The notes under the pieces were generated by a model. The model made no database searches and was not told the origin of the DNA. It saw only the letters and a list, made by a program, of their open reading frames with translations. Positions 744 to 2,348 of a stretch of DNA of 64,000 nucleotides are shown in pieces. Location: assembly GCF_025917315.1 (NCBI RefSeq), contig NZ_CP080627.1, positions 1,488,001-1,552,000 on the forward strand. The letters are read 5' to 3'. The DNA comes from Halomonas qaidamensis (GTDB lineage: Bacteria > Pseudomonadota > Gammaproteobacteria > Pseudomonadales > Halomonadaceae). A program made the position numbers and the translations under genes. Each line of letters opens with the position of its first letter. Within the stretch, counting starts at the first letter, position 1.

Positions 744-815
744 TGCCCAAAAATGTGCAGTGCTGGTGCATTTTATTTGCTGCAATGCGTCGTAACACTT
801 TTGAAAACCAGTAAC
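744..815 (+). promoter_or_regulatory. Possible enhancer sites upstream of the sigma-54 promoter
   Basis: The 110 bases before the sigma-54-like promoter hold two overlapping imperfect dyads ending in GTGCA (744-759 and 756-770). They also hold a direct repeat of GTAAC (792-796 and 811-815). The first pair resembles NtrC sites (TGCAC-N-GTGCA type) and the second resembles CbrB half sites as I recall them. The distance is typical for bacterial enhancer-binding proteins. This is inference from pattern only. Confidence 0.3.
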
Positions 816-854: not shown

Positions 855-871
855 TTGGCACGCAGATCGCT
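855..871 (+). promoter_or_regulatory. Sigma-54 (RpoN) type promoter
   Basis: TTGGCACG, four bases, then TCGCT. The invariant GG (857-858) and GC (869-870) are exactly 10 bases apart, as in -24/-12 promoters. There is one mismatch to the usual TTGC box. The predicted transcript start is near 882. The only thing downstream on this strand is a terminator at 998-1020, so the product would be non-coding. Confidence 0.6.
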
Positions 872-881
872 ATATATTAAG

Positions 882-1020
882 TAAGCAGCAAATGAATAGA
901 GTTGATAGATGAACTAGGTCTCTCTCCCTTCTTTGCTACATCGCCCCAGCTTGTGCTGGTAAGCGATACACCGAGTGAGCTGGCGTGCTCCACCTGGGTC
1001 CCCTTCGGGGGACTTTTTTT
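882..1020 (+). ncRNA. Candidate sigma-54-dependent small RNA, about 139 nt
   Basis: No reading frame here has a ribosome-binding site: the two ATGs (892, 909) meet stops within seven codons. The interval starts at the predicted sigma-54 start and ends in a strong intrinsic terminator. Its middle holds a pyrimidine-rich, probably unpaired stretch (about 919-933) complementary to Shine-Dalgarno-type purine runs. Hairpins follow: CCAGC/GCTGG (946-950, 955-959) inside TCGC/GCGA (941-944, 963-966), GAGC/GCTC (977-980, 987-990), then the terminator stem. The layout resembles RpoN-controlled regulatory RNAs such as CrcZ or NrsZ. I do not see CrcZ-like A-rich Hfq/Crc motifs, so the identity is unknown. 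Confidence 0.5.
998..1020 (+). terminator. Strong intrinsic terminator with TTCG tetraloop
   Basis: The six-base stem GTCCCC/GGGGAC (998-1003 and 1008-1013) encloses a TTCG loop and is followed directly by seven T. It reads on the plus strand, 300 bases after the dehydrogenase stop and just after the putative small RNA. Confidence 0.85.
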
Positions 1021-1058: not shown

Positions 1059-2348
1059 TTATGGGGTCAGGTTTTGCTGGCTGTTCTCCGTCACGACAAT
1101 GTTATCTTCAATACGAATGCCGCCACAGTTGGCTAGCAAGTCAACGAGGCTCCAGTTGATCGGTAGCGTTTTGTTGCGCAAGGGCTCTAATAGCATTGGG
1201 ATATAGTAAAACCCAGGCTCTATGGTTACTACCATGCCAGGGCGCAGTGTACGGGTTAAACGTAGCGCTGGATGCTGTTCAGGAGCAGGGGCGAGTGTTC
1301 CGTCTGGATGACGCAGCCCTGCCACATCGTGAACCTGTAATCCCAACGAATGCCCTAATCCGTGTGGGCAAAAGGCCCGCGTAATCCCCTCATCAACTGC
1401 CTGTTCTGCACTGCCCTGGAAAAGATCATTGGCAATAAGAATATCTGCCAGCAAACGATGCATTTGCTCATGTAGCGCAATGAACTCCACGCCTGGGGCA
1501 ACGCTTTCTACCAGCGTATCTTTTAACTGATTAATATCATCAATTAAGTTGCGATAGAGGCTTGGCGCGTCAGGTCCAGCATAAGTGCGTGTAATATCCG
1601 CGCAGTAGCCGCGAAAACGGCGTCCAGCGTCAACCAGCAGGCTATGTCGCTTCGTAGGGCTGCTTAAGTCGTAGTGTTGGTAGTGTAATACGCCTGCATG
1701 GTTATTCAGCCCAATGATGTTCTGATAGGGAACATCGGACTCCCGCTGTCTGCTGGCAGCCAAGTACGCCAGTTGAATATCTAACTCAGCCGATGCGCCA
1801 ATAAACGCCGCCTGCGCTGCTTGATGTCCTGCCATGGCGAGCCGGTTAGCTTCACTCAAACAGGCAATCTCATAAGCAGTTTTAAACATGCGTAGTTCGT
1901 CTAGAGCGTTAACCAGCGGTTGCGGTTGGTACTGTGCGTCTAGCGCGAGTTGTGTGGTGGGATCAATATCACCGATCACAGCAGCGCGGCCAGCTAGCGT
2001 TGGTAGTGGTTTTTCGCTACACAGTTGAATATCAAACTCAGTAACCCACGGCTCTTCAGGCAGGTGGGTAGGCAAATGCCAGAAATCAGCTGGCGCATAC
2101 AGGTGTAGCTGCGGGCGTTTTTCCGGTTGAATTAACAGCCAGCTGTGCTGGATGTCGGCCATGCCTACCCAGTGCATAAAATGGCCGTAGGTTTGGAAGG
2201 TGGGTGCTTGATCATCGCCAAAGTGTGGGTTGGCGTGGCCGCTGTAAATGGCCACGCTATCGAGACGGTGACTGGCTAACAGGTCTGTATAGGCTTGCTG
2301 TAAATGTGCTAAGTGGTCGCGCTGCAAGTTAAACAAAGAAGCTGACAT
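1059..2348 (-). CDS. pepQ: Xaa-Pro dipeptidase PepQ (M24 metallopeptidase)
   Basis: This 429-residue protein is close to the length of E. coli PepQ. It hydrolyses dipeptides with C-terminal proline in the cytoplasm, using two metal ions in a pita-bread fold. All five metal ligands are visible: D240 (VDAG), D251 (ADITRTY), H333 (HGLGHSLGLQVHDVAG), E377 (EPGFYY) and E414 (RIED). The N-terminal creatinase-like domain fills the first 150 residues. It lies on the same strand as the dipeptide transporter and LysR gene upstream, so imported proline peptides are a natural substrate. The nearest gene upstream ends 83 bases away. PepQ enzymes can also have organophosphorus-hydrolase (prolidase) activity. 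That is family knowledge and not seen here. Confidence 0.93.
   Translation of the reverse strand: MSASLFNLQRDHLAHLQQAYTDLLASHRLDSVAIYSGHANPHFGDDQAPTFQTYGHFMHWVGMADIQHSWLLIQPEKRPQLHLYAPADFWHLPTHLPEEPWVTEFDIQLCSEKPLPTLAGRAAVIGDIDPTTQLALDAQYQPQPLVNALDELRMFKTAYEIACLSEANRLAMAGHQAAQAAFIGASAELDIQLAYLAASRQRESDVPYQNIIGLNNHAGVLHYQHYDLSSPTKRHSLLVDAGRRFRGYCADITRTYAGPDAPSLYRNLIDDINQLKDTLVESVAPGVEFIALHEQMHRLLADILIANDLFQGSAEQAVDEGITRAFCPHGLGHSLGLQVHDVAGLRHPDGTLAPAPEQHPALRLTRTLRPGMVVTIEPGFYYIPMLLEPLRNKTLPINWSLVDLLANCGGIRIEDNIVVTENSQQNLTP

Follow-up and report, generated by a model that had tools for sequence, protein, structure and literature searches.

Known small RNAs under nitrogen and sigma-54 control

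Small RNAs that respond to nitrogen are already known as regulators, and four systems described elsewhere provide the closest comparisons. In Pseudomonas aeruginosa, NrsZ is described as an intergenic small RNA of ~226 nt, encoded between ntrC and PA5126, whose production under nitrogen limitation depends on NtrB/C and RpoN; its functional part is the first 60 nt, and it activates rhlA (PMC8395346). The same source describes CrcZ, CrcY, and CrcX of Pseudomonas as RpoN-dependent, CbrB-driven intergenic RNAs, of which CrcZ (~407 nt) lies beside cbrB and carries several A-rich Hfq motifs (PMC8395346). The enterobacterial GlnZ is described as a repressor of sucA that derives from the glnA 3′ end, glnA being an NtrC-regulated gene (PMC9731577). 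NfeR1 (alpha-r14) of Sinorhizobium meliloti, as presented in the source cited, carries three anti-Shine-Dalgarno motifs (CCUCCUCCC) and takes part in a loop with NtrBC, in which NtrC represses NfeR1 and NfeR1 silences ntrBC by pairing (PMC10746234). Among the open-licence papers listed in our searches, none describes such an RNA, or any RNA component of NtrC-dependent regulation, in Halomonadaceae.

A putative small-RNA gene between bdh and pepQ

The genome analyzed (G000; 3.8 Mb) belongs to Halomonadaceae, and the window is the whole 64-kb stretch of its DNA that was examined, numbered from its first base. An intergenic gap in the window separates bdh, which ends at 694, from pepQ (1059 to 2348, minus strand); both names come from an earlier note on this DNA, and the sequences agree with them by eye. 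The features of the gap are as follows.

755 to 769, plus strand: NtrC-type enhancer palindrome, degenerate (GTGC-N7-GTGC, 6/8 fixed bases), 101 bases before the sigma-54 box
856 to 871, plus strand: sigma-54 −24/−12 promoter box TGGCACGCAGATCGCT, with GG at 857-858, GC at 869-870, and ten bases between
882 to 1020, plus strand: putative small RNA of 139 nt, its extent inferred from box and terminator
888 to 901, plus strand: stem A, 5′ strand (GCAAA-U-GAA-U-AGAG), covarying with 922-936
922 to 936, plus strand: stem A, 3′ strand (CUCU-CCC-UUC-UUUGC), a mostly paired pyrimidine tract that pairs with 888-901
940 to 967, plus strand: stem 1 (940-944 with 963-967; inner 946-950 with 955-959), which varies and covaries
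975 to 991, plus strand: core GUGAGCUGGCGUGCUCC, which includes stem 2 (977-980 paired to 987-990), the putative seed
998 to 1020, plus strand: intrinsic terminator (stem 998-1003/1008-1013, UUCG loop, U1014-1020)

The earlier note had read this interval as a sigma-54-driven small RNA with a near-consensus GG-N10-GC box, a TTCG-loop terminator at its end, and no gene between them. Each of these elements was recovered. Apart from the box at 856-871, no site in the window matches TGGCACGNNNNTYGCW exactly; if one mismatch is tolerated, 4 sites match (1.75 expected), a number reached by 10 of 100 shuffles. A hairpin at 998-1013 followed by U1014-1020 forms the terminator. The gap contains no credible gene, the ORFs listed there being short or antisense to pepQ, and a small ORF near 892 was rejected because its ATG is AAG, GTG, or TTG in some relatives and the start codon is thus not conserved. 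The start of the RNA is set at 882, presumably 12 bases past the GC, and the end at the U run (1020). No Rfam family reached the gathering threshold in the window, and nine sub-threshold matches fell within 700-1060. The GG-N10-GC box and the stems are conserved among relatives; a lack of such conservation was one outcome that the earlier note had named as able to refute it. The sigma-54 reading is thus supported, and 882-1020 has the look of a real small-RNA gene. Directly past the terminator, on the side of the pepQ 3′ end, lies another strong inverted repeat (1021-1048).

We have high confidence that this is an NtrC/sigma-54 small RNA. The fuller reading, which we hold to be likely, is that nitrogen limitation induces it, that it acts in trans, that its 3′ module also ends the glnK-amtB mRNA, and that it pairs through its core, with ntrB as the best candidate target. 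The reading draws on the promoter box, the structure, its conservation, its twin on amtB, and NtrC-type sites in relatives, each of which is visible in the sequences. Both the RNA family and its double setting, as a gene of its own and as the tail of amtB, look new.

The proposed control by NtrC and sigma-54 would match that of NrsZ: the locus has a sigma-54 box, and relatives have an NtrC-type site. Unlike NrsZ, the RNA is 139 nt long, lies between bdh and pepQ, is conserved at its 3′ end, and has a copy on amtB, and ntrC is >1.2 Mb from the window copy. An intergenic position and, presumably, RpoN dependence are shared with CrcZ, CrcY, and CrcX; the RNA differs from CrcZ in its 139-nt length and in lying beside pepQ rather than cbrB. 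The earlier note had compared the locus to both NrsZ and CrcZ, while remarking that CrcZ A-rich motifs were missing. The remark was correct, as the A-rich motif AANAANAA is absent from 882-1020, and of the comparison the NrsZ part (NtrC and sigma-54) fits and the CrcZ part (no AANAANAA, not beside cbrB) does not.

Structure and covariation

The predicted fold of 882-1020 has an energy of −47.8 kcal/mol (z −2.45), and 3 of 200 shuffles folded equally well. In a structure alignment (A2) of 36 genus-type sequences out of 46 collected, the 27 base pairs, which make up three stems plus the terminator, were kept at 97.9%. Changes on both sides were seen in 14 of the 27 pairs, and none of 500 shuffles matched either this number or the covariation score; the pair-type count was reached by 29 of 500. 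The stacked hairpins proposed in the earlier note are thus borne out by the fold, and the covariation that it had suggested looking for among relatives is present in stems A and 1.

Stem A variants change as a block (GCAAA/UUUGC, GGUGA/UCACC, GCAAU/AUUGC, and GGCAG/CUGCC), which indicates that the pyrimidine tract is paired; within it, CCC alone stays open. An unpaired tract at 919-933, as the earlier note had it, is contradicted by the covarying pairs between 922-936 and 888-901. The further suggestion that an open tract pairs with ribosome-binding sites is unsupported, because the tract lies in a covarying stem and is missing from the shortest copies in other genera. In one relative, the RNA is 187 nt long (L019:1414-1600), with the loop of stem A enlarged by ACTGTTAAACATAG repeats.

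The outer pairs of stem 1 changed on both sides in 5/5 cases in A2 and in 4/5 in an alignment across genera (A1). Stem 2 and its loop were invariant in all aligned copies of both alignments (34/34 and 36/36), and since stem 2 never varies, it provides no covariation evidence. Stem 1, the invariant GUGAGCUGGCGUGCUCC hairpin, and the terminator together make up what we call the 3′ module, which would be the working part of the RNA.

Such invariance suits a protein landing site as well as it suits a seed. The RNA could then act as a decoy in the way that CrcZ does for Hfq, and the copy on amtB would serve either as another decoy or as a stability element. We consider this unlikely: each RNA holds one such hairpin, whereas the decoys described in the source cited have several sites (PMC8395346), and the AANAANAA motif is lacking. 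Two features are relevant to Hfq under the preferred reading of a pairing RNA, namely the presence of hfq in the genome and the U-tailed terminator in which the RNA ends.

Distribution across Halomonadaceae

Of the 275 family genomes, 226 contain a match to 840-1020. R1, a covariance model built from 34 sequences of the 3′ module, matched 227 of the 275, covering 15 of 24 genera and often giving two matches per genome. Of 390 genomes in an order-level sample, 36 matched R1, 16 inside the family and 20 outside; none of the 20 scored >32.9 bits, compared to 91.3 bits for the window copy, and one family member (G126) was equally weak at 26.2 bits. Five of the 20 outside matches were read (L070 to L074) and rejected as distant homologues, as they have no core. 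With the outside-family matches all weak and the five that were read lacking the core, the RNA appears to be characteristic of the family. An exact 17-mer search of genome contigs found at least 119 stretches; among the 80 listed, seven were not from Halomonadaceae, and these had no module. Viral contigs gave eight matches, with the module in none.

Sigma-54 boxes and NtrC-type sites

The loci analyzed held 146 distinct copies of the module, which a script sorted into 100 stand-alone copies (a few doubtful, e.g., L104) and 46 amtB copies. In the 330 bases upstream, scores for sigma-54 reached 20/22 or higher at 69 of the 100 stand-alone copies, 0 of the 46 amtB copies, and 3 of 500 letter shuffles; the other 31 stand-alone copies scored <20. 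The box stands 57 bases ahead of the core at L068, L153, and L190, where the RNA would thus amount to barely more than the module. At four other loci (L087 from Halomonas halmophila, L088 from H. caseinilytica, L141, and L158), a sigma-54-like TGGCATG-N4-TCGGA sits right before the core, without stem 1, and the possible RNA is only ~50 nt (seen by eye, outside the range of the scored scan).

Of the 82 stand-alone copies that could be tested, 54 are preceded by the palindrome GCAC-N7-GTGC, which we take to be the NtrC consensus, with at least 7/8 bases (letter-shuffle mean, 4.5); in 43 of the 54, it starts 99 to 104 bases before the box. Enhancer-like dyads had been noted upstream of the window's box, and in relatives they can be identified with this palindrome at its near-fixed place. 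The window's own copy at 755-769, with only 6/8, is not among the 54 and stands in the same place as the 7/8 or 8/8 palindromes of relatives. Across the 64-kb window, the motif with one mismatch is not enriched (23 matches versus 38 expected). The genome encodes ntrC (753 bits against a cut-off of 558.6; C1:245824). NtrC, bound ~120 bases upstream of the start, would activate sigma-54 polymerase at 856-871, which would then make the 139-nt RNA ending at 1020. The ntrBC operon of the same genome is probably autoregulated, since the region upstream of ntrB (L246:228-413) holds both a sigma-54-type box, TTGGCGCGCTTTTTGCA, and GCACTATAATGGTGC, an NtrC-type palindrome that is nearly perfect.

Control of a sigma-54 small RNA by some other activator, such as CbrB or an acetoin-type regulator encoded near bdh, would fit the degenerate state of the window's palindrome. 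An NtrC-family activator gene does lie near bdh, ~4 kb before the window (C1:1483614-1484459, minus strand; 675-aa frame); it scored 301.9 bits to the ntrC model, below the cut-off, and is perhaps an acetoin regulator. We nevertheless judge this alternative improbable. In genus loci, bdh neighbors the RNA in only 17 of 30 cases and pepQ in 28 of 30, which speaks against bdh-tied control, and the palindrome is retained in other genera with different neighbors.

A twin of the 3′ module at the end of amtB

Within its own genome, R1 found two significant places only, the window copy and C1:3444129-3444203 (41.9 bits; E = 2.4e-7), the next-best place having an E value of 1.2. The second copy is the 3′ end of amtB, directly past the stop codon, and its core reads GUGAGCUGGCGUGUUC where the window copy has GUGAGCUGGCGUGCUCC. 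The glnK-amtB pair sits behind a sigma-54-type box, TGGCACGGTATGCGCA. A second PII (GlnB/GlnK-like) gene lies downstream of amtB on the same strand (L202:1150-1488). In other genera, the second module copy likewise directly follows an AmtB ammonium channel gene ending in EEEEYEGVDLAECGLEAYPEFNVAKK or similar. Stem 1 spans the amtB stop codon in five of seven copies (L035, L039, L041, L044, and L045; for L037 and L051, the script picked other stems), and changes in the last codons of amtB are matched across the stem (GUCGCC/GGCGA versus GUCGGC/GCCGA). A single module match per genome was found in g21 (18/18 listed) and g17 (7/7 listed), and the two of these that were read, L059 and L062, are amtB copies.

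The copy on amtB ties the RNA to nitrogen. We examined 22 genomes that lack the RNA; amt genes occur in 19 of them, and the core was found in 0 of 28 readable 3′ ends (paralogues included, 160 bases past the stop scanned; best core match, 10/16). The absence of the core from these ends argues that the module is not an inherent part of being amtB. It is very improbable that the module is nothing more than a terminator, mobile or convergent, that has no function in trans, since, while it does end in a terminator in both settings, the core upstream is invariant where the terminator stems vary, stems A and 1 covary, and the 28 readable amt 3′ ends of the RNA-less genomes have no core.

Under the preferred reading of a nitrogen-induced small RNA, the module tail of the glnK-amtB mRNA would probably be released, so that one regulon would yield the same RNA from two genes. 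The proposal resembles GlnZ, where the 3′ end of a nitrogen gene under NtrC control likewise gives rise to a small RNA. Unlike GlnZ, the source here is amtB together with a stand-alone gene, with no third significant place in the genome, and sucA pairing is unsupported (0/8 genomes); as a target, sucA was rejected because its pairing was no better than that of shuffles in 8/8 genomes, 16 to 100% of shuffles being as strong.

Outside the genus type, 14 of 53 stand-alone copies share at least 12 of 17 bases with TTCAACGTCGCCAAGAA, which stands for the final codons of AmtB (0.85% of shuffles do), compared with 2 of 47 genus-type copies; stem 1 itself contributes part of this match. These matches hint at a more speculative scenario, which we regard as possible but less likely than not: the stand-alone gene would be a duplicated amtB mRNA 3′ end, last codons included, and gene and amtB tail would both feed back on ntrBC, one regulon thus holding the module twice. 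With one copy as a separate gene and another at the tail of an mRNA, the module makes a good comparative case for how message ends give rise to small-RNA genes.

ntrB as a candidate target of the core

Expression, processing, Hfq use, pairing, and feedback are steps that we infer for the RNA, whose most likely action would be antisense pairing via the invariant core. In a comparison of 67 starts, taken from the window and from four further loci, ntrB came fourth, beating 98% of block shuffles, and it was then traced by gene order in six relatives from the genus. Predicted pairing energies (which ignore folding of the RNA itself) were −22.1 kcal/mol in the own genome, −25.6 in G225, and −24.2 in both G240 and G255; in these four, the pairing covers the Shine-Dalgarno sequence, start codon (AGGAYACGCCAUG), and early codons. 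G239 uses the same site as the own genome (−19.4 kcal/mol), and G241 a different one ~30 bases before the start (−25.7 kcal/mol; 15 contiguous pairs, three of them G-U). In G210, one of the seven species, the pairing is lost (−15.0 kcal/mol). Of 614 starts in 38 stretches, the fraction at least as strong was 0.0375 for the own genome, 0.0098 for G240, 0.0065 for G241, and 0.19 for G239. Stretches from G260, G261, G234, G242, G191, G165, and G178 gave no ntrB.

Across 61 ortholog groups, each with at least four genomes and all from one chromosome region, ntrB (six genomes, G255 not included) had the lowest mean energy (−22.0; groups, −16.87, standard deviation 2.15). None of 100 shuffled cores ranked ntrB first (best rank, 3). 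This run used a changed start-codon rule, an earlier version having kept nine groups, ntrB not among them. We take the ranking as a lead, not proof, because the groups come from one region and from relatives that are not independent, the runners-up are close (−21.3 and −21.0), and ntrB was chosen after inspection of the own genome, G239, G240, G241, G210, and G255, before the groups were ranked. On these predicted pairings, ntrB is a tentative candidate target of the core. Pairing at the ntrB leader and start codon would produce negative feedback on NtrBC.

The proposed silencing of ntrBC by pairing recalls NfeR1, with the predicted ntrB pairing leading the 61 groups and lost in G210. Unlike NfeR1, the site here suggests activation rather than repression by NtrC, and the CCUCCUCCC motif is absent from 882-1020. 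The predicted ntrBC loop is directly testable in a tractable genus that is not pathogenic. Halomonas bluephagenesis is described as making PHB, a bioplastic, typically when nitrogen is limiting (PMC13101641).

Other target searches were less productive. When the own genome was searched for antisense matches over 17 bases with three or fewer mismatches, 13 were obtained; two were the RNA's own copies, and no convincing ribosome-binding site coincided with any of the remaining 11. A CACGCCAG-N2-30-ATG screen of four genomes, with at least 97 matches among those listed for the own genome versus 28 in the reversed control, was dropped because the excess was put down to codon usage. The ortholog group MSAKTLALIEEHDVKWVDLRFT, presumably glnA, ranked 5 of 61, with a predicted core pairing of −20.2 in 5/5 genomes; this constancy may only reflect conserved codons. 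As a target, aceE was rejected, with no pairing better than that of shuffles in the 6 of 8 genomes for which a script located a start (upstream of the likely true start in three genomes). The own genome carries two full-length aceE-type genes, at C1:1382869-1385520 and C1:3012185-3014836, both above the family cut-off.
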